Source: Thalassobacter stenotrophicus
Lineage (GTDB): Bacteria > Pseudomonadota > Alphaproteobacteria > Rhodobacterales > Rhodobacteraceae
Length of the DNA: 64,000 nucleotides
Assembly: GCF_001458315.1 (NCBI RefSeq)
Contig: NZ_CYRX01000010.1
Coordinates: 1-64,000, forward strand
Direction: 5' to 3'
Position numbers and translations under genes: made by a program. The notes beneath the pieces were generated by a model. The model was not told the DNA's origin and searched no databases. It worked only from the letters and a program-made list of their open reading frames with translations. Position 1 is the stretch's first letter. Each line of letters begins with the position of its first letter. Below are positions 1,920 to 16,498 of the stretch, piece after piece.

Positions 1920-2134
1920 TGAGAAACCCGGAGAAAAACCCGGAAGCCAGTTCCGCCGGTATACTGACTAAGTCGGGGGTGGCGGAGCCAGGATGCGCTG
2001 TGGGGCATCTTTCCCACCTAAACGGTCGTCTTCAGCCCCAACAGCAGACCGAGGTGCTCCCCTTCATTTTCTGCTCCTCTGGCGGAGTATTCCTGCCAAG
2101 AGAAAAGGGGGGAGAGCTCAATGCTTTCTGCTGA
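1919..2134 (+). CDS. Small hypothetical protein coupled to neighbours
   Basis: A 71-residue frame that starts in the TAATG stop of the preceding gene and runs 14 bases into the primase gene in another frame. There is no known domain; the N-terminus is polar and Pro-rich, the middle has a Gln tract, and the C-terminus has two Cys. Spacing on both sides is what a coupled operon would show, which is the main support. It may instead be non-coding spacer whose overlaps are accidental. Confidence 0.4.
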   Translation: MRNPEKNPEASSAGILTKSGVAEPGCAVGHLSHLNGRLQPQQQTEVLPFIFCSSGGVFLPREKGGELNAFC

Positions 2135-3137
2135 AAAAATAGGATCGGGTGAATTTCCCGTGACTGACATCCACGATGAAGCCGGGTATCTGTGGCGGGA
2201 CGTACTTCAACATTTGGGTTTCGATTCGAAATTTCTTTGTAATCGGCACGGGCCCTGTCCGCTTTGCGGAGGCAAAGATCGCTTCCGGTTCGATGACAAG
2301 AGTGGGACAGGTACCTACTTTTGCAATGGTTGTGGCCCGGGCACCGGTATCGATCTGCTCATGAAGCGAGATCAATTGTCATTTGCTGATGCCGCGGCAC
2401 GCGTTCGTCGTACTTTGGTTTCATGTCCGGATAGACGTACAAAGACGGCATCTGCCTCTACTAAGCAAATTCGGAATAACCACGATGAATGGGCTCGCGC
2501 TGAGCGCAAAAAACTATGGAGTCGTGGCATTGCGGTCGAACATCAAGATCCAGTGGACACGTATCTCCAGCACCGAGGGATCGACCTTGATGCGTTCCCT
2601 CCGACACTACGCTGGTTACCACCGGGGCAGGGCAAGGGGCGATGGGACGCTATGCTCGCAGCCGTTCAGGCGCCTGACGATCGCGTTGCTACGCTTCATT
2701 ATACGTTGCTTAACGAAGGGCGAAAGGCGCCCGTAAACTCACCTCGACGGTTTGCCAAAGGGGCCGTAGCTCGGGGGTCTGCGGTGCGCCTCGCGCCACC
2801 GGCGCCCATTCTTGGGATTGCAGAGGGGATCGAGACCGCACTTGCTGCAAAGTTGCTCTTCGGGACGCCTACATGGGCGGCACTCAGCGCCGGCATGATG
2901 CAGTCTTGGCAGCCACCTACGGGCACCACCCGCGTCATCATATTCGCTGACAATGACGGAAATAGTGCCGGCAGCAAAAGCGCCGAATGCCTCATCCAGC
3001 GGCTGACGAATGAAGGCATTCAAACGACCCTTAGGATGCCCTCACAAGTTGATACTGATTGGGCTGACTTCGTGTCTTTGCCCAGCATTAAGAGCGCCTG
3101 CCAGCGCGAAATTAACTTTGGAAAGGTTAAACTATGA
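2121..3137 (+). CDS. P4-type zinc-ribbon and Toprim primase-like protein
   Basis: A 338-residue protein likely to make RNA primers for replication of the element. Residues 40-72 form a P4-type primase zinc ribbon with Cys46, Cys49, Cys68 and Cys71. A linker domain follows (about 130-225), then a Toprim domain: the EGIETAL glutamate motif at 235-241, FADND at 275-279 and DTDWADF near 311-317. There is no helicase domain after it, unlike the full P4 alpha protein, so it would need a host or partner helicase. The start at ATG 2121 has a GGGGGGAGA site just upstream. Its stop overlaps the next gene as ATGA. Confidence 0.85.
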   Translation: MLSAEKIGSGEFPVTDIHDEAGYLWRDVLQHLGFDSKFLCNRHGPCPLCGGKDRFRFDDKSGTGTYFCNGCGPGTGIDLLMKRDQLSFADAAARVRRTLVSCPDRRTKTASASTKQIRNNHDEWARAERKKLWSRGIAVEHQDPVDTYLQHRGIDLDAFPPTLRWLPPGQGKGRWDAMLAAVQAPDDRVATLHYTLLNEGRKAPVNSPRRFAKGAVARGSAVRLAPPAPILGIAEGIETALAAKLLFGTPTWAALSAGMMQSWQPPTGTTRVIIFADNDGNSAGSKSAECLIQRLTNEGIQTTLRMPSQVDTDWADFVSLPSIKSACQREINFGKVKL

Positions 3138-4888: not shown

Positions 4889-4944
4889 ACAGGATTTATT
4901 CTGATTGTAATTGCAGGTTAAGCCTCTGATTGGGAGGAGAACCA

Positions 4945-6549
4945 ATGCAAATCGATGTTACGCCTAGGCCAGCAGCCTCGGCCCAGTCAGGGTATGAGGT
5001 GATTGACTGGGTCGGCTACCATGCCGCAGTCAAACCCTCAGCCATAGCCATGCGAGAACTGCCATCGGGGCGCGTGCAAACCTATGGTGGGATGCACATT
5101 CGTGTGGGCAAGATCGCAGCAGGGCTGCGCGTCCGCGGTGTTGAGGCCGGCGATAGGGTCGCTTTCTTGATGCCCAATTCATCAGACATCATGGATTTGA
5201 CCTTCGCGGTATGGCGGCTTGGAGGGGTGGTGTTGGCGCTGAACCATCGGTTATCCGCGCAAGAATTGGGTTTTATCCTAAACGATGCGGGTGCGCAGGT
5301 GGTCGTTCACGACGCGAGCCTATCTGAACTTGTAAGCGAAATCGATGCGCCGGCGGTGACTGATTGGATCGCGTCTAACGGTGACGGAAGCGACAGCCCC
5401 TTTGAAGCTGCCATCGCTTCGCAGAGCACACCTGTTTCGGATCGTATCCCACAGCACCTGCAAGACCAGTGCATGCTGATGTATTCATCAGGTACGACAG
5501 GGCGACCTAAGGGCGTCATTATCACCCATGGTATGATCCATTTTTCGGCATCCGGCAGTTTCGGGCCATGCCGTACATCTTCCAATAGCGTTTCACTTGC
5601 AGCGATGCCGCTGTTTCATATCGCGGCAATGAATGTCAGCTGCTTGCCGATGTTTTCGATCGGAGCCACTAGCATCATCATGCGAGCTTTTGAGCCTGAA
5701 GCCGTGCTGACCGCGATTTCAAACCCTGAGCTTGGTGTCACGCATACATTCGCTGTTCCGGCCGCTTTCAATGCGTTGCGCGAAAGTGCCAGCGCGGAAA
5801 CCTCTGATTTTTCTCGTTTGGTCACGGTTATTTCCGGGGCCGAGACGGTGCCCGAACCACTTGTAAAATGGTGGGCGGATCGTGGCGTGCAGATCCTTGA
5901 GGGTTACGGGCTGACGGAGACTGCTTCGGCGGGCTGCCTGCTGCCCCACGCGGACGTCGGCCGCAAACACGGCTCGACCGGCATGCCGACCATGTATGGC
6001 CCCATGAAAATCATGAAAGATGAAATGACCGAAGCTGGGGCAGACGAACTGGGGGAAATCTGGGTGCGGGGGCCTGTTGTGACACCAGGATACTGGAACT
6101 TGCCAGAAGCCACGGCGGAAGCCTTTTATGATGGATGGTTCCGTACCGGCGATATCGGGCGCAAAGACACTGAGGGGTATCTGTATATCGAGGACCGCTT
6201 GAAGGACATGTACATTTCAGGTGGCGAAAACGTGTATCCTGCCGAAGTTGAAAATGTCCTTTATGAGCACGCTGCCATCGTGGAAGCAGCGATCATCGGT
6301 GTGCCTGACAAACGTTGGGGGGAGGTCGGCTGCGCGGTTGTAGTCCTGCGCCCTGACATCCCATTTGACGCCGCCGAAATTGAAACACTGTGCGAAGGAA
6401 AACTCGCACGTTTCAAGCGGCCAGCACATGTCGTCCTGCTGGACGCATTGCCACGAAACGGAACCGGCAAGGTTCTCAAGCACGAACTTAGAAAAATTGT
6501 GGAATCCGGCGAAGTCCGGTATTCAGAGACTCTGGGGAGAAAGCAATGA
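4945..6549 (+). CDS. Acyl-CoA synthetase, AMP-forming
   Basis: A 534-residue member of the ANL adenylating family that activates a carboxylic acid to its CoA thioester with ATP. Visible motifs are the phosphate loop SSGTTGRPKG (181-190), YGLTETAS (the A5 region), GWFRTGDIG with the ribose-binding Asp, the hinge region KDMYISGGENVYP, and the C-terminal PRNGTGKVLK with the catalytic Lys. Length is normal for medium- and long-chain or cyclic-acid ligases. The ATG at 4945 follows a GGAGG site; an earlier in-frame TTG at 4930 would remove that site, so I reject it. It overlaps the transporter start by ATGA. Substrate cannot be told from sequence. Confidence 0.9.
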   Translation: MQIDVTPRPAASAQSGYEVIDWVGYHAAVKPSAIAMRELPSGRVQTYGGMHIRVGKIAAGLRVRGVEAGDRVAFLMPNSSDIMDLTFAVWRLGGVVLALNHRLSAQELGFILNDAGAQVVVHDASLSELVSEIDAPAVTDWIASNGDGSDSPFEAAIASQSTPVSDRIPQHLQDQCMLMYSSGTTGRPKGVIITHGMIHFSASGSFGPCRTSSNSVSLAAMPLFHIAAMNVSCLPMFSIGATSIIMRAFEPEAVLTAISNPELGVTHTFAVPAAFNALRESASAETSDFSRLVTVISGAETVPEPLVKWWADRGVQILEGYGLTETASAGCLLPHADVGRKHGSTGMPTMYGPMKIMKDEMTEAGADELGEIWVRGPVVTPGYWNLPEATAEAFYDGWFRTGDIGRKDTEGYLYIEDRLKDMYISGGENVYPAEVENVLYEHAAIVEAAIIGVPDKRWGEVGCAVVVLRPDIPFDAAEIETLCEGKLARFKRPAHVVLLDALPRNGTGKVLKHELRKIVESGEVRYSETLGRKQ

Positions 6550-7952
6550 CCAGCACATCAATCGGATGGGGCACGCGGCTCGCCTATGGGATCGGGTCCA
6601 TCGCCTACGGCATCAAGAACAACGGCTTTGCTACGTTCCTGATGATTTACTTCAACCAAGTATTGGGGTTGCCTGCGATCCTGGTTGGTCTTTCATTGTT
6701 GATAGCCTTGCTTTTTGACGCGGTATCGGACCCGTTGGTCGGGTACATTTCCGACCGCCATAACTCGCGATTAGGGCGTCGACATCCGTTCATGTATGCA
6801 GCGATCTTGCCGACCTGTATCGCCTATTTCTATATGTGGACGCCCCCAGATCTGGGTCAAACTGGCTTGTTCATCTATCTGACAGTGATGGCGATCACAG
6901 TACGTCTGTCGGTCACATTCTTCGAGGTTCCCAATTCTGCTTTAATTGGGGAGTTAACGCACGATTATGACAAGCGCACAGCCCTTTCAGGTTTGCGCTT
7001 GATGATGGGCTGGCTGGCCGGTGTCATCATGGCCGTTGTGGTCTACCGCGTGTTTTTGGCGCCGTCGGTTGAATACGACGACGGGATCATGAACCTTGAG
7101 GGCTATAAGAGTTACGCGATTACGGCAGCAATTGTGATGGGGGTGGCAATGCTGATTTCATCGTTGGGAACGCATCGCGCTATCAAGCATTACTCAAAGC
7201 CGGACGCCGAAAGCGAAGGCCATGGGTTTTCGTTCATGCAAAACGTCAAGTATATTTTTCGTAACCGGTCTTTCCGCGCGGTCTTTATCGGGACGGTCTT
7301 TAGCAGTCTTGTCGCTGGGATTGCTACGACGTTGCAGCTCTATTTCGGCATCTACTACTTCGGTTTGTCTACCGGTCAGCTAGGGCTCGCGGCGCTAACG
7401 ATGGTTCCCTCTGCGATCATCGCCTTTTTGGGGACGTCTCAATTAAGCAAGGGGCGCGAAAAGAAGTCGGTCGTTGTCACGCTGTCCTGGATATCGATGG
7501 TTTTGTCGGTGATCTTAATCGCGGCGAAATCAGCAGGAATTCTGCCCGAGAACGGATCGACAGACATGTTCTATGTCGTCGCTCTTGCGACCTTTGTGAC
7601 AACGGCTGTAACGATTTCACTTTCGATCATGAGTGTTTCGATGGTCGTTGATCTGGTCGAGGGCGATGAGCGCAATACAGGGCACCGTGCCGAAGGGCTT
7701 TATTTTGCTACGTTCTCCTTTACCGCCAAGATTGTGACCGGCTTTGGCACGTTCGTGTCGGGTGCACTTTTGACATTTGGCGCATCACCTGGAACGGGCG
7801 AGTTAATGAGCGAAGAGGTAATGCAAGGCATCGCGCTGCCTTATGCAATTTTGATGGTAGTGCTACATATTGCGTCGATTTACTGCCTGCGCCGCTTCGG
7901 TCTGACCCGCGATGGCCATACCGATAATTTGCAAGCGGTTCAGAAAATCTAA
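6546..7952 (+). CDS. MFS carrier of the GPH (MelB-like) cation symporter family
   Basis: A 468-residue inner-membrane carrier with about 12 hydrophobic segments. The loop after the second segment, FDAVSDPLVGYISDR followed by GRRHPFM, is the hallmark of the glycoside-pentoside-hexuronide:cation symporter family. Family members mostly import sugars or uronates with Na+ or H+. Here the gene is translationally coupled (ATGA) to an acyl-CoA synthetase in a fatty-acid-like cluster, so an organic acid or other non-sugar substrate is more likely (inference). A strong hairpin follows the stop and separates it from the convergent LysR gene. Confidence 0.85.
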   Translation: MTSTSIGWGTRLAYGIGSIAYGIKNNGFATFLMIYFNQVLGLPAILVGLSLLIALLFDAVSDPLVGYISDRHNSRLGRRHPFMYAAILPTCIAYFYMWTPPDLGQTGLFIYLTVMAITVRLSVTFFEVPNSALIGELTHDYDKRTALSGLRLMMGWLAGVIMAVVVYRVFLAPSVEYDDGIMNLEGYKSYAITAAIVMGVAMLISSLGTHRAIKHYSKPDAESEGHGFSFMQNVKYIFRNRSFRAVFIGTVFSSLVAGIATTLQLYFGIYYFGLSTGQLGLAALTMVPSAIIAFLGTSQLSKGREKKSVVVTLSWISMVLSVILIAAKSAGILPENGSTDMFYVVALATFVTTAVTISLSIMSVSMVVDLVEGDERNTGHRAEGLYFATFSFTAKIVTGFGTFVSGALLTFGASPGTGELMSEEVMQGIALPYAILMVVLHIASIYCLRRFGLTRDGHTDNLQAVQKI

Positions 7953-7974
7953 GAAGTAATAGGCTTGTCTTAAA

Positions 7975-8000
7975 AGTGGCCATCTTTCGGGATGGCCACT
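7975..8000. terminator. Bidirectional terminator hairpin
   Basis: A perfect 10-bp stem (AGTGGCCATC with GATGGCCACT) around a six-base loop lies between the convergent carrier and LysR genes. It is placed 22 bases after one stop and 11 after the other. A long T-run is absent, so termination strength is uncertain. Confidence 0.6.
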
Positions 8001-8011
8001 ACTTGTTGAAT

Positions 8012-8977
8012 TCAGGGTAATCCCGCCCCGGCCCGGAATTCATTTACACCGTAGCGCAACACCGTCTGGATATGTGACAGCAACTGGTGGGCCGCAGGGG
8101 GCAGGGGGCGCTGGTTAAGCCACGCAGCCACGCCGGGGATTGTGCGCCGATTGTAAGGCCAGTCGATGATGTCCAGCTTGCAGACTTGCCCCGTGTCGAT
8201 TTCTTTTCGCACGATAAATTCCGGCAAAGTAGCTACAGCATTGGTAAGCAATAACAACTGTCGCAGCAAACCAAGACCTTGAGAGGTCAGGAATGTGTCA
8301 CGCAGGGTGCTAATATCAGGGAACGTTTCGGGATATGCTTCCATGATCCCCCACAAGAACCAGTCTGGCACATCGCCGCCAATCACCGAATAGGTTGTGA
8401 GAGTTTCGATCCCGATGGGCCCTTGTCCAACAAGGGGATGATCTGCGGAACACAAGACAACCGGTGGCACCAATTCAAGCGCGCGGTAGCGCAAGGCATC
8501 GGATTCGCGGTCGGGTCGCAGCCCGATGTAAATGTCGATCTGACGTTCTTCCAGGTAGCGTTCCCACTCGTTACGATTACAAATGATGACTTTGAAGCGC
8601 CAGTCAGGGTGCGACGTGATCAGTCGCGCCATAGCCGGTGCCAAGAGGCTTTCAGAGACGGTTGGGTCGGTTCCGATCAGCAATTGACCGGCCTCAAGAT
8701 CGCGCAGCATTTGGACGTCGCGGGCCGCGGCTTCCATTTCGTTAATTGCGATTCGCGCAGCAGCGATAATCCGTTCGCCAAGGGCCGTCGGCACCGTTTC
8801 GTTTCGGGAACCGTCATGGCGGGTGCGGTCAAACAGTTCGGTGCCGTGTTCGGCCTCCAGCCGTTTAATGGTCTGACTGACAGCAGAATGTGAAATTCCA
8901 AGTTTTTGGCCAGCTTTGCGGAAGTTTCCCGTGTCAGCCAGCGCAACAAGCTGTCGAAGATGTCCAAGGCTGTCCAT
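8012..8977 (-). CDS. LysR-family transcriptional regulator
   Basis: A 321-residue LysR-type regulator. Residues 1-60 carry the winged helix-turn-helix (HLRQLVALADTGNFRKAG, then SHSAVSQTIKRLE). Residues about 90-300 form the periplasmic-binding-protein-like effector domain. It is divergent from the fusion-enzyme gene, with a 15-bp T-N11-A palindrome at 9005-9019 in the shared promoter, the usual LysR arrangement of autoregulation plus activation of the divergent operon. Two related palindromes before the acyl-CoA synthetase and the FadL-like porin suggest a wider local regulon. The inducer is unknown, probably a pathway intermediate. Confidence 0.9.
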   Translation of the reverse strand: MDSLGHLRQLVALADTGNFRKAGQKLGISHSAVSQTIKRLEAEHGTELFDRTRHDGSRNETVPTALGERIIAAARIAINEMEAAARDVQMLRDLEAGQLLIGTDPTVSESLLAPAMARLITSHPDWRFKVIICNRNEWERYLEERQIDIYIGLRPDRESDALRYRALELVPPVVLCSADHPLVGQGPIGIETLTTYSVIGGDVPDWFLWGIMEAYPETFPDISTLRDTFLTSQGLGLLRQLLLLTNAVATLPEFIVRKEIDTGQVCKLDIIDWPYNRRTIPGVAAWLNQRPLPPAAHQLLSHIQTVLRYGVNEFRAGAGLP

Positions 8978-9004
8978 TTCTCATTCCCTCCCGTCGATCA
9001 TTTG

Positions 9005-9019
9005 GTAATCATTGCTTAC
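9005..9019 (+). promoter_or_regulatory. 15-bp palindrome, operator copy 2 (LysR-type box)
   Basis: GTAATCATTGCTTAC lies in the 96-base divergent promoter between the LysR gene and the fusion enzyme, with GTAA/TTAC arms and the T-N11-A spacing. Its outer positions match the copies at 4874 and 23995. Confidence 0.55.
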
Positions 9020-9073
9020 ACGATTTATCATTTCTGTAATCGAAGGCAAGGTTTTCCAGTAACTGGAGGAACC

Positions 9074-12000
9074 ATGCAGAACTTCAACGGAAAGACAGCG
9101 TTCATTACTGGTGGCGCGGGTGGTATCGGATTGGCGATTGCCAGCAGCCTTGGTGACTGGGGTGCCAAGATCATGCTCTCGGACCTGAGCGAAGACCGCC
9201 TGAAAGAGGCTGTCGCATCGCTTGTGGAGAAGGGCGTGGACGCCGATTACGTCGTCTGCGATGTGGCAAATGCGGACAGTGTCGATCTGGCGGCGCGCCG
9301 TACGCTGGAGAGGTTCGACAAGGTCCACATTCTTGTGAACAACGCGGGTGTATCCTGTGGCGGGCCGACAGGAGAAATCCCCCTTGATGACTGGCACTGG
9401 AGTGTTGGCATCAACCTAATGGGAGTTGTGCACGGGGTTGAGATTTTTACCCCGCTGATCAAAGCGCACGGCGAGGGCGGACACATCATCAACACGGCAT
9501 CAATCGCCGGTCATATCGCATTTGCCAGCGGCGCGCCGTATGTGGCAACGAAGTTCGCGGTCGTCGGTTATTCCGAAACGCTGCGCGAGGACCTCGCGGG
9601 AAGTGGGATCGGCGTCAGCGTTTTATGCCCTGCGTGGGTACGCACCGACATCAACAAATCGCAAACGATGCGGCCATCCCGCTCAAAGATGGATAACGTC
9701 GAAGCCTCTGAAAGCATGAAGCTTGTCGAGACGTTGGTGGACAATGGAATGGATCCAAGCGTCATCGGTAACTTGGTCGTGGATACGATCCAACAGGATC
9801 GGTTTTATGCCTTCACCCATGCCGAAATGCTGCCCCACATCGAGGCGCGTACCGAACGTCTGCGCGCGGATTATGCGGCCAGCTTGGCCAGCATCGAACG
9901 CAGAGACGGGGCCTATGAGGCCTCCGGCGATCTTGAAGTGCTTATTATTGGAGCAGGGTTTTCTGGGGTCTGTGCGGGGATCAAGCTGCGCGAGGCAGGC
10001 ATTACGAATTTCCGGATTTATGACAAAGCCGACGGCATCGGTGGTACATGGTATCTGAACACCTATCCCGGTGCCGCCTGCGATATCCAATCGCATTTTT
10101 ATAGCTACTCGTTTGAACCAAACCCCAATTGGAGCCGCCTTTACGCGCCCCAGCCTGAAATCCAAGCCTACATTGAGCATTGTGCCGACAAATACGGCGT
10201 GCGCAAACACATCCGGCTCGAGCGCAAAATCGCATCGATCATTTATGACGATGTAGATGGCGTTTGGACCACGACATTTGAAGACGGTGAGGTTGTCAGA
10301 TCACGGTTCGTGATTAACGGCTCAGGCGGGTTGCATGAACCAAACTATGCGCCCTTCAAGGGCGATGACAGATATCAGGGCGTCAAAATGCATACGGCGC
10401 GGTGGGATCATTCGTTTGATCCTACGAACAAGCGCATTGCGGTGATCGGTAGTGCGGCCAGTGCCATTCAGGCGGTGCCGCAACTGGCGAAAGTTGCAGC
10501 CAAGGTCAGCCTCTATCAACGCACGCCCAACTACATCGCGCCCCGACTGGATTTTTCTTATACAGACGAGCAGATCGAGGCCTACCGTGTCGACCCAACG
10601 CTGATCAAAACCGATCGTGATGATATGTATTGGGACCGTGAAAACCGGCTCTACCCTATTGTTAAAAACGAAGCGATCCGCCGAGCTGCCGCCGAGGATA
10701 TAAAATCCGCAATGCGCAGTCAGGTGACCAAGACAGAATACCACGATGCGCTCATGCCGGACTATGAATTGGGCTGTAAACGCATCCTGATCTCTGATGA
10801 TTTCCTGCCTTCCTTGAACCGTGACAACGTGGCGTTAATCACCAGCCCGATTGCCGAGATGACAGAAACCGGGATCATTACGGAGAACGGTGTTTCCGAG
10901 GAGTTTGACGCAATCATTTACGCGACCGGCTTTGATGTTCAGGGGCACCAGTTTTCAATGGATATTCGGGGCGAAGAGGGCCTTGCGCTGTCCAAGTGGT
11001 GGGAAAACGGCTCGGAGGCTTATCGCGCGACGATGGTACCGCATTTTCCAAATTATTTTCTGGTGACGGGGCCAAATGCGGGTGTCGGAACGACGTCGAT
11101 CGTCCATCTGATCGAGCAGTCGGTCGGCTGGATCGTGCAGGCCGTGCAGAAGGCTGGCAACGACCTGAGCGTGACGGTGAGCAATGAAGTCACGCGCTCC
11201 TATAACGAAGCGTTGCAGAAAGAGCTGTCGCAGACAGTTTGGGCCTCGGGTTGTAAGAGTTGGTATCTAACGGATGATGGCCGGATCGAAACGCTGTTCC
11301 CCGGGAATGCGCAGGATTTTGAAGCGCAGATGCGTGATGTTGATCCCAGCGAAGTGACGTTCTTCAAGCTTGAGGGCGGGCGCAAGGAAACCGTAGACCT
11401 GATGCTGGCTGCACCGGAGGTAAGCACATCGGTCAAGCCGTATGAGGGCACGTTCGATCCAGCGTTCAAAGATGTCGCCGAGGCATTTGCCGCCAATTTT
11501 GCAGATCGTGGAGAGGTCGGCGCAAGCCTATGTCTAGCGGTTGACGGCAAAACGGTTGTCGACATTTGGGGCGGCATCTCCGCACCAGCGAGCAAGGCGG
11601 CGTGGCAGCGTGATACGATTGTCCCTGTCTACTCCTGTACCAAAGCCGCGACGGCCATGTGTGCGCATCTGTTAGTGGACCGCGGTCTGCTTGATTTGGA
11701 CGCGGCGGTCGCGAATTACTGGCCCGAATTTGCTGCCAATGGCAAAGACTGTGTGACAGTGCGGATGTTGCTAAACCATTCCGCCGGAATTCCGGCTTTG
11801 CAGGCAAAGGTGCCGCCACAGGGGTTCATTGATTTTGAGGCGACCGCCGCGATGTTCGCGGCACAGGCGCCATTCTGGACGCCCGGCACAAAGAACGGCT
11901 ATCACATGGTCAGCTTTGGCTGGCTTGTGGGCGAAGTCGTGCGACGGGTTTCCGGCAAATCGCTGGGCGCGTTCTTCCGCGATGAGATCGCGGGGCCGTT

Positions 12001-12598
12001 GGGGCTTGATTTCTGGATCGGGCTGCCTGCGAGTGAAGAAAAACGGCTGGCGCAGGCTATTCCATTCGTGCCCCCAGCAGGGACACCACCGTCAGAATTC
12101 CTAACGACGCTAATGTCCGACCCGGGTTCGATACAGTTCCTGTCTTTCATGAACACCGGCGGGTTTGACATGAACCAACGCGCCTATCGTGCAGCCGAGA
12201 TTGGCGGGGCGGGGGGCGTGGCCAACGCCCGTGGTCTGGCGGGAATGTTTGCGCCGCTGACGACGGCCAAAGGCTATCTGTCCCGGTCACGCATTGATGC
12301 CATGCGCAAGCCCTCGATGGAAACGGAGCGTGATGAGACGCTGTTGATACCGACGCGCTTTGCCGAAGGGTTTATGCTGTCGATGCCCAACCCAAAACAG
12401 CCAGCGGGTGCATCCGTGCGACTAGGCGAGGGCGCATTTGGCCATGTCGGGATGGGCGGCAGCATCGGCTTTGCCGATCCGAATGCAGGTTTCGCTATGG
12501 GCTATGCGATGAACAAACTGGGCGGTGGCATTCTCTTGAACGAGCGGGGCCAATCGCTGGTCGATGCCGCCTACGCAACTGTTGGAGAGACCGTATAA
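9074..12598 (+). CDS. Trifunctional fusion: SDR + Baeyer-Villiger-type monooxygenase + beta-lactamase-fold esterase
   Basis: A single 1174-residue frame with three enzymes. Residues 1-275 are a classical short-chain dehydrogenase: TGGAGGIG (12-19), Asp37 after beta2 (NAD preference), NNAG (89-92), Ser143, Tyr156 and Lys160. Residues 285-780 are a class B flavin monooxygenase: FAD motif GAGFSG (293-298), GGTWYLNTYPG (323-333), a Baeyer-Villiger fingerprint at 434-445 (Tyr in place of the first Phe, then the HT and WD), a second Rossmann site GSAASA, and ATGFD (617-621). Residues 795-1174 are a serine beta-lactamase-fold hydrolase: S854-x-x-K857, Tyr943, GHVG (1123-1126). Together they suggest alcohol to ketone to ester to alcohol plus acid. 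ATG 9074 has an excellent GGAGGA site; the longer open frame runs into the LysR gene. Confidence 0.92.
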   Translation: MQNFNGKTAFITGGAGGIGLAIASSLGDWGAKIMLSDLSEDRLKEAVASLVEKGVDADYVVCDVANADSVDLAARRTLERFDKVHILVNNAGVSCGGPTGEIPLDDWHWSVGINLMGVVHGVEIFTPLIKAHGEGGHIINTASIAGHIAFASGAPYVATKFAVVGYSETLREDLAGSGIGVSVLCPAWVRTDINKSQTMRPSRSKMDNVEASESMKLVETLVDNGMDPSVIGNLVVDTIQQDRFYAFTHAEMLPHIEARTERLRADYAASLASIERRDGAYEASGDLEVLIIGAGFSGVCAGIKLREAGITNFRIYDKADGIGGTWYLNTYPGAACDIQSHFYSYSFEPNPNWSRLYAPQPEIQAYIEHCADKYGVRKHIRLERKIASIIYDDVDGVWTTTFEDGEVVRSRFVINGSGGLHEPNYAPFKGDDRYQGVKMHTARWDHSFDPTNKRIAVIGSAASAIQAVPQLAKVAAKVSLYQRTPNYIAPRLDFSYTDEQIEAYRVDPTLIKTDRDDMYWDRENRLYPIVKNEAIRRAAAEDIKSAMRSQVTKTEYHDALMPDYELGCKRILISDDFLPSLNRDNVALITSPIAEMTETGIITENGVSEEFDAIIYATGFDVQGHQFSMDIRGEEGLALSKWWENGSEAYRATMVPHFPNYFLVTGPNAGVGTTSIVHLIEQSVGWIVQAVQKAGNDLSVTVSNEVTRSYNEALQKELSQTVWASGCKSWYLTDDGRIETLFPGNAQDFEAQMRDVDPSEVTFFKLEGGRKETVDLMLAAPEVSTSVKPYEGTFDPAFKDVAEAFAANFADRGEVGASLCLAVDGKTVVDIWGGISAPASKAAWQRDTIVPVYSCTKAATAMCAHLLVDRGLLDLDAAVANYWPEFAANGKDCVTVRMLLNHSAGIPALQAKVPPQGFIDFEATAAMFAAQAPFWTPGTKNGYHMVSFGWLVGEVVRRVSGKSLGAFFRDEIAGPLGLDFWIGLPASEEKRLAQAIPFVPPAGTPPSEFLTTLMSDPGSIQFLSFMNTGGFDMNQRAYRAAEIGGAGGVANARGLAGMFAPLTTAKGYLSRSRIDAMRKPSMETERDETLLIPTRFAEGFMLSMPNPKQPAGASVRLGEGAFGHVGMGGSIGFADPNAGFAMGYAMNKLGGGILLNERGQSLVDAAYATVGETV

Positions 12599-12599
12599 G

Positions 12600-14357
12600 A
12601 TGGCCGACCGCTTGCTTTGCGAAACTGATATGGCGTTCCAGTTATTTGATTGGTTGAATGTGGAGAGCCGTCTCTCAGACAGTGAGTTTGATGGAGAGAC
12701 TGCGCGTGCCTATTTCGACTTATCCCAGAAACTGGCCGCCGATCACTTTCTACCCCATTACAAAACTTCCGACATGCATGAGCCGCGTTTAGAGAATGGG
12801 CAGGTCCATGTTTTACCTGAAATCGGGACCGCTCTAGCGGAGTTCCGCGATCTGGGCCTCTTCGGGGCCAGTTTCCCCGAAAACCTTGGCGGAATGGGGT
12901 TACCTTATCTTCTCTCCAGCGCGTCCTATGCTTGGTTTGCGGCGGCGAATTGTTCGTCTATTGGCTATACAATGCTGACGGGTGCGAACGCCCGTCTGCT
13001 CGCGGCGTTTGGCAATAAAGTGCAGATTGATACCTTCGCACGTCCGCAGATTGAGGGGCGCTGGTTTGGCACCATGTGCTTGTCCGAGCCGCAGGCCGGA
13101 TCAGGATTGGCTGATGTTCGCACCCGCGCAGTGGCTGATGGGGCCGATGCTCACGGTCCGCGTTACAGGCTGACGGGCAACAAGATGTGGATCTCTGGCG
13201 GGGATCAAGACATTTCAGAAAACATCGTGCATTTGGTCCTGGCCAAAGTACCCAACGATGCGGGTGATCTGCCCGACGGGACAGAGGGTATATCGTTATT
13301 TATCGTGCCCAAGGTGCTGCCCGATGGGACCCTGAACGACATTGCGGTTGCCGGTCTCAATCACAAGATGGGCAATCGGGGCACGTCAAATTGCCTGTTA
13401 AACTTTGGCGAAGGTGACGGCGCTGTCGGCTGGATGGTTGGGGAACCAGGTCAAGGCCTGCGCCAAATGTTCATGATGATGAACGAGGCTCGCATCGCCG
13501 TGGGCTTCGGGGCTGCCGCGCTAGCCTGCCGGGGCTATTTGCTCGCCGTGGATTATGCGCGGGAAAGGCTGCAAGGCCGCGCAATCGGCCAGCGGGAGGG
13601 GGCGCCCGTTGCTATTATCGAACATACGGATGTGCGCCGGATGCTGCTGGCGATCCGCGCCTATAGCGAAGGGGCGATGGGGCTATGCCTTTATTGCGCC
13701 GCTCTTGTTGACCGGCCTGACGATGCCGAAGATGCCGCGTTGCTTGAATTATTGACGCCGGTTGCTAAGACATTTCCGTCCGAGTACGGGCCTAAGGCCA
13801 ATGATCTGGCGATCCAGATTCACGGCGGCTACGGTTACACCCGCGATTTTGATGTTGAGCAGCTCTATCGAGACAATCGCCTGAATCCGATTCACGAAGG
13901 CACGACTGGTATTCAGGCCCTCGACCTACTTGGCCGCAAGATTTTGCGCGAAGGGAGCGGGTTAAAGGTGCTGGAACGCAGGATCGACGACACCTGTGCA
14001 AGGGCTGAGGCTTTCCCGGAGTTGTCTGGCAATGCCGCTGCCTTACGCGTGGCACTGTCGCAGGTTTTCAGCACGGTTGACGCAGTCCGCACACACCCCA
14101 AGGACCGACAGATGGATAACGCTGCGCCGTTTCAGACAGCGTTTTGCTTGGTTGTTGTCGCGTGGATATGGCTGGATCAAGCAGTAGCTGCCCATTCTTT
14201 AGAGCAAGGTCTGCCGCAGAATGATCGCCTGCGGGAGGGTAAGACCACCACCTGCCGCTACTTCTTCACCTTAGAACTCCCGATGGCTGCTCCGCTTCTG
14301 GCGCAGGTGGCATCGGGTTGTGATGTCACCCGAACTGCCGATCCGGCCCTTTTTTGA
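12600..14357 (+). CDS. Acyl-CoA dehydrogenase, long DmdC-like type
   Basis: A 585-residue flavoprotein dehydrogenase of the long subfamily that includes DmdC (3-methylmercaptopropionyl-CoA dehydrogenase). It forms a 2-enoyl-CoA and passes electrons to ETF. Motifs: MCLSEPQAGSGL (FAD/substrate region, about 159-170), NKMWISGGDQD, and HEGTTGIQALD (432-442) with the putative catalytic Glu433; the extra C-terminal helical domain fills the rest. It starts one base after the fusion-enzyme stop with GGAGAG upstream, so it is co-transcribed and probably oxidises the CoA ester of that enzyme's product. DMSP catabolism itself is not indicated by the neighbours. Confidence 0.85.
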   Translation: MADRLLCETDMAFQLFDWLNVESRLSDSEFDGETARAYFDLSQKLAADHFLPHYKTSDMHEPRLENGQVHVLPEIGTALAEFRDLGLFGASFPENLGGMGLPYLLSSASYAWFAAANCSSIGYTMLTGANARLLAAFGNKVQIDTFARPQIEGRWFGTMCLSEPQAGSGLADVRTRAVADGADAHGPRYRLTGNKMWISGGDQDISENIVHLVLAKVPNDAGDLPDGTEGISLFIVPKVLPDGTLNDIAVAGLNHKMGNRGTSNCLLNFGEGDGAVGWMVGEPGQGLRQMFMMMNEARIAVGFGAAALACRGYLLAVDYARERLQGRAIGQREGAPVAIIEHTDVRRMLLAIRAYSEGAMGLCLYCAALVDRPDDAEDAALLELLTPVAKTFPSEYGPKANDLAIQIHGGYGYTRDFDVEQLYRDNRLNPIHEGTTGIQALDLLGRKILREGSGLKVLERRIDDTCARAEAFPELSGNAAALRVALSQVFSTVDAVRTHPKDRQMDNAAPFQTAFCLVVVAWIWLDQAVAAHSLEQGLPQNDRLREGKTTTCRYFFTLELPMAAPLLAQVASGCDVTRTADPALF

Positions 14358-14366
14358 CCTAATGAA

Positions 14367-15299
14367 ATGACAAAGAACATGGCACAAACCAACGAACAAA
14401 CGATACGATTTGACAACCGCGTTGCGATCGTCACTGGCGCAGGCGCGGGGCTTGGCCGCTCTCACGCACTGGATCTCGCGCGGCGCGGGGCAAAAGTCGT
14501 CGTGAATGATCTTGGCGCTGTAGCTGCACAGGCCGTCGTTGACGAGATTACCGCCGCTGGTGGTGAAGCCGTTGCCCACAACGCCAACGTCACCGATGAG
14601 GCGCAAGTCAAGGAGATGGTAGATCAGGCGATTGCGCGTTGGGGGCGGATCGACATCCTTGTCAACAATGCTGGTATCCTGCGCGACAAATCGTTTAGCA
14701 AAATGACGTTGGATGATTTTCGCTTGGTTTTGGATGTACATGTCATGGGGGCGGTTGTTTGCACCAAGGCTGTTTGGGACCACATGAAAGAGGCAAGCTA
14801 TGGCCGCATCGTGATGACATCGTCATCATCGGGCATTTATGGCAACTTCGGCCAGTCCAACTACGGTTCCGCTAAGATGGGGTTGGTCGGGCTGATGAAC
14901 GTCCTGCATATCGAGGGTGAAAAATATGACATCCGTGTCAATGCCCTGTCCCCGACTGCAGCGACACAGATGACCGAAGGTTTGATTTCTCCCGAGGCAC
15001 TTGAGCTGATGACGACGCAAAGCGTGTCGGCTGGTCTGTGCTATTTGGTGAGTGAAGATGCTCCGTCGCGGTTGGTACTTTGCGCTGGGGCAGGGGCCTA
15101 TGCTGCGGCCAAGGTCTATGAAACCGAAGGCCTGTATTTGGAACCGGATCAGCAGACAGCAGAAGGGGTCGCGGCAAACATCGATGCGATCACTGATGAG
15201 GCCGGTCAGCATCCCTATGTTCAGGGCTTTCAGCAGACATTCAAATTTGTGGGTAAGGCGGCGAACCATTTCGGCGTCGACCTTAAGGGAGGGTTGTAA
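14367..15299 (+). CDS. Short-chain dehydrogenase, HSD17B4-like (3-hydroxyacyl-CoA type)
   Basis: A 310-residue SDR resembling the dehydrogenase unit of peroxisomal multifunctional enzyme 2. Motifs: TGAGAGLG (23-30), NDLG after beta2, NNAG (100-103), Ser153 region, Tyr166 and Lys170. The C-terminal extension (about 240-310) is typical of that subfamily. It probably oxidises a 3-hydroxyacyl-CoA to the 3-ketoacyl-CoA, directly before the thiolase encoded three bases downstream. The start is uncertain: ATG 14367 and ATG 14379 both lack a strong ribosome-binding site. Confidence 0.85.
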
Positions 15300-15301
15300 T
15301 C

Positions 15302-16498
15302 ATGCGCGATGCCGTCATCGTTTCAACTGCGCGCACTCCGATCGGCAAGGCCTATCGCGGTGCGTTCAATGCAACTCCTACCCCGACACTGGCCGGCCAT
15401 GCTATTGAACATGCCGTTGCCCGTGCCGGCATCGACCCCGCCCGCATCGAGGATGTGGTGCTGGGGGCCGCACTACAGCAAGGCACGAATTTCATGAATG
15501 TGGCCCGAAATGCGGCGATCCGCGCGGGCCTGCCTGTCAGCGTGGCGGGGCAAAGCATTGATCGCCAATGTGCCAGCGGCATGATGGGTATCGCCACCGC
15601 TGCCAAGCAAATCATTTGCGACGGTATGGACGTGACCGTTGGCGGTGGTGTCGAGAGCATCTCGATGAACCAGGTGCCCCAATCGTTCCAGACCACCGAT
15701 GCATGGATCAAAGCCAATAAGCCCGCGCTTTACATGACCATGCTGGAAACCGCCGAAAACGTGGCCGAGCGGTTCAACGTCAGCCGCGAGGCCCAGGATG
15801 AATATGCTTTGGCATCCCAGCAGCGCACTGCGGCAGCCCAAGATGCCGGCAAATTCGACGACGAGATCGTCGCAATGAGGGCGGTCAAAAAGGTCGTGGA
15901 CAAGGTCACAAAAGAGGTTTCGGACGAGGAGGTGACACTTTCAAAAGATGAAGGCAACCGGCCCGCCACTACACTAGAAAACCTTCAGAGCCTTAACCCC
16001 GTTTTTGCTGATGGGCAGGTCGTCAAGCAAGGACAATACATCACAGCAGGCAACGCCAGCCAACTTTCGGACGGTGCGTCAATAAGCGTGTTGATGGAGG
16101 CCCGTATCGCCGAAGCTGAGGGATTGGAACCACTGGGCCGATATGTGGGGATGTCGGTTGCGGGTTGCGAACCTGACGAGATGGGCATTGGCCCGATCTA
16201 CGCTGTGCCCAAACTGCTAAAGGCAAACGGTCTGAAGATCGACGACATCGGACTGTGGGAGCTAAACGAGGCTTTCGCCAGTCAGGTCATTGCTAGTCGC
16301 GACCATCTAGGCATCCCCGACGAGCTGTTGAACGTCAACGGCGGGGCGATCTCGGTTGGTCACCCCTACGGAATGTCCGGCGCGCGCATGGTCGGCCATG
16401 CACTGATCGAGGGCAAACGGCGCGGTGCGCGGTATGTCGTTTGCACTATGTGCATCGGAGGAGGCATGGGCGCCGCTGGTTTATTTGAGGTTTTATGA
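15302..16498 (+). CDS. Acetyl-CoA acyltransferase (thiolase)
   Basis: A 398-residue thiolase that cleaves 3-ketoacyl-CoA with CoA, releasing acetyl- or propionyl-CoA. The nucleophile is Cys90 in DRQCASG, the activating His is His354 in VGHPYGMSG, and the second catalytic Cys is Cys384 in CIGGGMG. It follows the HSD17B4-like dehydrogenase with a two-base gap, completing a beta-oxidation step pair. Length and motifs are intact. Chain-length or ring preference cannot be told. Confidence 0.9.

Follow-up and report, generated by a model that had tools for sequence, protein, structure and literature searches.

The fused gene and its neighbors

The window, the whole 64,000-nucleotide stretch of Thalassobacter stenotrophicus DNA analyzed here, contains a rightwards-transcribed gene (9074–12598, + strand) in which an SDR, a Baeyer-Villiger monooxygenase (BVMO) and a family VIII esterase are joined in a single polypeptide of 1174 amino acids, followed by a stop codon. 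The ATG at 9074 is preceded by AACTGGAGGAACC, a good Shine-Dalgarno sequence, and the ribosome-binding site (GGAGG) with its spacer can be read directly from the sequence at 9060–9073 (+ strand). The first-pass annotation had described one uninterrupted 1174-codon frame, and the translation, the ribosome-binding site at the ATG and the lack of a stop codon at either domain junction bear this out; the stop-to-stop frame around the gene is longer, at 1234 amino acids. With the whole fused protein as query, the gene is the sole full-length match in its genome, and at an E-value of 0.001 neither a further BVMO nor a further family VIII esterase is found there.

A divergently transcribed LysR-type regulator (8012–8977, − strand; Pfam, synteny) lies immediately upstream, preceded by genes for an acyl-CoA ligase and an MFS_2 transporter (4930–7952, + strand; Pfam, synteny); relatives of the ligase sit beside a BVMO gene at locus L138 and near one at L046. 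Downstream, the ATG of an acyl-CoA dehydrogenase gene (12600–14357, + strand; Pfam, sequence, PDB relatives) follows the stop of the fused gene by one base, and is itself followed by near-contiguous genes for a (3R)-hydroxyacyl-CoA dehydrogenase-like SDR and a thiolase (14367–16498, + strand; Pfam and PDB). The directly downstream set also includes an enoyl-CoA hydratase, with ETF, MaoC and FadL-like porin genes further on. The porin and the downstream beta-oxidation genes would suit a hydrophobic substrate that is taken up and yields an acid for beta-oxidation. A steroid C/D-ring reading of the neighborhood was considered and dropped: an NMO-like neighbor matches PA1024-type proteins, and similarity to IpdE2 is far under its cutoff. 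Near the contig start, a Toprim/DUF7146 primase-like gene (2121–3137 of the window) lies in DNA of lower G+C content (51%) and may signal the boundary of a mobile element.

Three enzyme domains and two linkers

The SDR domain spans residues 1–275 (9074–9898, + strand), as defined by Pfam, its PDB relatives (LigL, LigO, LigD and 5ig2), AlphaFold and Foldseek. Pfam adh_short matches residues 7–197 (3e-50), and the classical TGxxxGxG, NNAG and Ser-Tyr-x3-Lys motifs are all present (TGGAGGIG 12–19, NNAG 89–92, Ser143, Tyr156 and Lys160), with the key residues invariant in the SDR alignment. A full SDR fold is predicted for this domain, with a mean AlphaFold pLDDT of 81 and a Foldseek TM of 0.82 to 5ig2. 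The nearest solved relatives are 3ioy, 5ig2 and the Lig C-alpha dehydrogenases, the last of which oxidize secondary alcohols. Asp37 stands at the end of the second strand, and the closest solved relatives, 5ig2 and LigL, bind NAD/NADH; from these features the SDR looks NAD-dependent.

The middle domain (residues 288–765; 9935–11368, + strand) is a BVMO by Pfam, by its PDB relatives (steroid and cyclohexanone monooxygenases) and by motif positions. Pfam Pyr_redox_3 and FMO-like matches cover residues 289–621 (8e-14 and 7e-12), solved BVMOs are homologous over both halves of the domain (E=2e-72), and the nearest of these are steroid, cyclohexanone and phenylacetone monooxygenases. The motifs comprise GAGFSG 293, GGTWYLNTYPG 323, a fingerprint at 434–445, QRT 482, CKR 568–570 and ATGFD 617. 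The active-site Arg is present, and QRT 482 and CKR 568–570 align with the matching stretches of steroid monooxygenase. The Arg of QRT and the Lys of CKR mark the NADPH-dependent type I BVMOs, so that this domain looks NADPH-dependent.

The BVMO domain departs from the textbook pattern at two places. The fingerprint reads Y-QGVKMHTARW-D, in which Tyr replaces the first Phe of FxGxxxHxxxW(P/D), and the second dinucleotide site is G-S-A-A-S-A in place of GxGxxG. Because the closest BVMO relatives share G-S-A-A-S-A, the degenerate site is a feature of the clade. All of the catalytic residues named in the first-pass annotation are found where it placed them, but its account of the BVMO motifs needs amending on these two points. 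Class B monooxygenases are promiscuous and sometimes oxidize sulfur or nitrogen rather than ketones, and this, together with the deviation at 434, could mean that the monooxygenase acts on sulfur, nitrogen or another non-ketone, or else that the SDR is a reductase, such that the chemistry would not run from alcohol to ester. We regard this as quite unlikely, given that the closest solved relatives are true BVMOs, that the active-site Arg is in place, and that an esterase is the logical next step after ketone oxidation.

That esterase, of the beta-lactamase fold, occupies residues 790–1174 (11441–12595, + strand; Pfam, PDB carboxylesterases 8j5v and 5gmx, motif positions). Pfam Beta-lactamase (PF00144) matches residues 805–1151 (2e-65), and 8j5v (1e-82) and 5gmx are the nearest solved carboxylesterases. 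The nucleophile motif S-x-x-K (S854-C-T-K857) and the catalytic Tyr943 of family VIII carboxylesterases are present, as is GHVG at 1123–1126. The Pfam matches of all three domains are far above chance level and, with the active-site residues, they uphold the earlier description of a single chain with three complete enzymes arranged in the order of the reactions. Structure prediction, which had been proposed for all three active sites, gives the model of the SDR domain described above and a poor one for the full-length protein (pLDDT 63, pTM 0.47); because of the latter, domain arrangement and channeling cannot be judged from it.

The domains are joined by two linkers. The first, of ~12 residues (about 276–287; 9899–9934, + strand), is defined by comparison with L074 and L138 and corresponds to the point at which the SDR gene ends and the BVMO gene begins in unfused relatives. 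The second, of ~24 residues (about 766–789; 11369–11440, + strand), is defined by sequence and a start-codon scan and contains an ATG at codon 777. The sequence shows no stop codon at either junction, the start-codon scan finds no start there with a properly positioned Shine-Dalgarno sequence, and G+C by codon position remains protein-like through both. The fusion is known from a single assembly, as would be expected if two or three genes had been joined by an assembly or sequencing artefact. Such an origin is nevertheless very improbable: it would require two independent in-frame joins, both the stop of the SDR and the start of the BVMO are missing and the linker is short, frame and base composition are continuous, and the surrounding contig is 255 kb long, in a genome with a listed completeness of 100% and contamination of 0.12%.

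The nearest candidate for an internal start is the in-frame ATG at codon 777, which has AAGGAA ~12 bases upstream, lies near the point where free esterases start, and is possibly a weak start. Initiation here would also yield a free esterase, and fused and separate forms would coexist. The spacing between AAGGAA and the ATG exceeds the usual, however, and the BVMO is without a comparable internal start site, and we consider a second product of this kind unlikely.

Distribution of the fusion and its unfused relatives

The whole protein was used to search 149 genomes of the family, 385 of the class, 293 of the order, 398 of the phylum, 350 of a second class in the phylum and four of the family of genome G372, with a total of 1583 genomes, the source genome included. 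In these genomes no further match that passes the listed thresholds extends over two of the domains, none of 72,556 plasmid records has a match covering 80% of the query, and the 25 loci from a pattern scan of 84,980 species genomes include no equally fused protein. These searches are samples, and Actinobacteria were covered by the pattern scan and plasmid records only. Several candidates were rejected: joined matches at L046, L052 and L067 in the pattern scan are separate neighboring genes, and for long stop-to-stop frames in G378, G367, G1000 and other genomes no SDR or esterase domain was matched in the BVMO frame (the SDR is in a different frame in G378 and on the opposite strand in G367). 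A 760-amino-acid frame of G092 contains no N-terminal domain that can be recognized. A natural SDR-BVMO-esterase chain was also not found in the literature searched, where most subscription journals are outside coverage. The first-pass annotation was aware of no described three-enzyme fusion of this order, and none was met in genomes, plasmids or literature; its suggested domain-architecture search yields no second SDR, BVMO and beta-lactamase protein in these three genome and plasmid collections. The novelty is in the natural architecture, each component enzyme family being well known.

The first two enzymes are neighboring genes elsewhere, as had been pointed out earlier, and head-to-tail SDR-BVMO pairs occur at two loci, both in alphaproteobacteria. 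At L074 (G372) the SDR (50% identity to the window domain) and BVMO (46%) genes overlap by four bases (GTGA) and adjoin a divergent LysR gene whose product is 46% identical to that of the window and in the equivalent place. At L138 (G649, of the same family as the window), genes for an SDR (49%), a BVMO (49%) and an acyl-CoA ligase (35%) lie in succession, with four bases between the SDR stop and the BVMO ATG. In separate trees the window SDR groups with the G372 and G649 SDRs (five-row group, SH-aLRT 95) and the window BVMO with the corresponding BVMOs (ten-row group, SH-aLRT 100). Alignments that mixed all three domains misplaced the SDRs, and separate alignments were used for folding. At L073 (G137; 7968–10196), the BVMO belongs to the clade of the window BVMO, the SDR next to it is distant (25%), and stop and start meet as TGAATG. 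The SDR-BVMO pairing has therefore arisen more than once. The L073 SDR stop and BVMO start share a reading frame, leaving this pair one stop codon short of a fusion.

Relatives of the esterase mostly stand alone. BVMO genes are nearby in G342 and in G309, G407 and G181 (the latter three of one genus, including Tistrella), which amounts to only 4 of ~31 esterase loci retrieved with broad flanking DNA, from two lineages; an esterase relative is also near a BVMO gene in Brevibacterium (L067). At L122, L124 and L125, from three genomes of the genus that includes Tistrella, a relative of the esterase is transcribed divergently from a BVMO-acyl-CoA ligase pair, and another esterase copy lies close by. 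L108 (3930–6438) has two family VIII esterase genes in tandem with overlapping frames, 55% and 54% identical to the window esterase domain. Judged by sequence comparison, the unfused relatives appear to explain the origin of the fusion: an SDR-BVMO operon would have lost the stop of its SDR gene and the start of its BVMO gene, with an esterase gene joining in frame either before or after that event.

Predicted reactions and comparison with known systems

We propose, with a probability of roughly 60%, that the protein is a natural trifunctional catabolic enzyme that would convert a secondary alcohol, via ketone and ester or lactone, to an alcohol and an acid. The N-terminal SDR would use NAD+ to oxidize the secondary alcohol and so form a ketone, the BVMO would insert one oxygen atom of O2 to give an ester or lactone at the expense of NADPH, and the C-terminal esterase would hydrolyze this product to an alcohol and a carboxylic acid, which would pass, as its CoA ester, into the adjacent beta-oxidation operon. 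The earlier proposal of this reaction order gains support from that operon, which would take the acid, and the same steps, beginning with a secondary alcohol and ending with an alcohol and an acid, make up the known route of subterminal oxidation. Hydrophobic ketones or secondary alcohols would be the likeliest substrates, for example alicyclic compounds or those formed when alkanes are oxidized subterminally, and the benefits of fusion may be a fixed stoichiometry and the keeping of ketone and ester close to the next site.

The first-pass annotation also suggested that nicotinamide is recycled within the protein. A self-sufficient fusion of this type uses one shared nicotinamide, whereas the SDR (Asp37, NAD/NADH-binding relatives) is predicted to use NAD and the BVMO (QRT, CKR) NADPH; since these predicted cofactors differ, self-contained recycling is unlikely, and the fused enzyme probably needs a separate NADPH supply.

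A single-chain cascade, in which three consecutive steps lead to alcohol and acid with the intermediates held within the protein, is possible, though less likely than not. The three domains may instead be active yet joined merely for co-expression, without channeling and perhaps without acting in series on one substrate. The predicted cofactor mismatch agrees with this, as does the rarity with which the esterase, unlike the SDR, lies beside BVMO genes in relatives, and the poor full-length AlphaFold model gives no structural sign of active sites facing each other. Domain order matches reaction order, however, and several genomes have SDR-BVMO pairs, with different SDRs; both points speak against joining for co-expression alone, which we consider fairly unlikely.

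The unfused SDR-BVMO operons described above are a closer comparison than the mycobacterial mymA operon raised in the first-pass annotation. The L074 and L138 pairs have the same SDR and BVMO clades in the same order, with LysR beside the former and acyl-CoA ligase beside the latter, but code for two separate proteins, and the esterase is neither fused nor adjacent. LigD, LigL and LigO share with the SDR domain its fold, an NAD-type site and secondary alcohol oxidation, but are stand-alone lignin-dimer enzymes ~28–36% identical to it. The three activities also occur in matching order in the subterminal alkane oxidation proposed from proteomics for Thalassolituus oleivorans, where a secondary alcohol dehydrogenase, a BVMO and an esterase are three separate proteins (PMC6304351).

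Engineered fusions of alcohol dehydrogenase and cyclohexanone monooxygenase convert alcohol to lactone in one chain, and in one of the two orders tested the dehydrogenase is N-terminal, as it is here (PMC5624969). They differ in being man-made, with a glycine-rich linker and no hydrolase, and in being designed for redox-neutral NADP(H) cycling, with one of the dehydrogenases assayed with NAD+ (PMC5624969). Biocatalysis groups make such fusions by hand for one-pot lactones, and a natural fusion that includes a hydrolase would supply such a scaffold ready-made, would reveal a domain order and linkers accepted by evolution, and would allow direct tests of substrate channeling along the route of subterminal oxidation.

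A BVMO-alpha/beta hydrolase fusion of Burkholderia glumae (L105, WP_251108010.1) likewise arose naturally and has a hydrolase C-terminal to its BVMO-type monooxygenase, but this hydrolase is an Abhydrolase_3 instead of a beta-lactamase fold and there is no SDR domain. This plasmid gene (L105, 4956–7421) is annotated only as an alpha/beta hydrolase, adjoins GMC oxidoreductase and aldehyde dehydrogenase genes, and is present in many B. glumae plasmid records.
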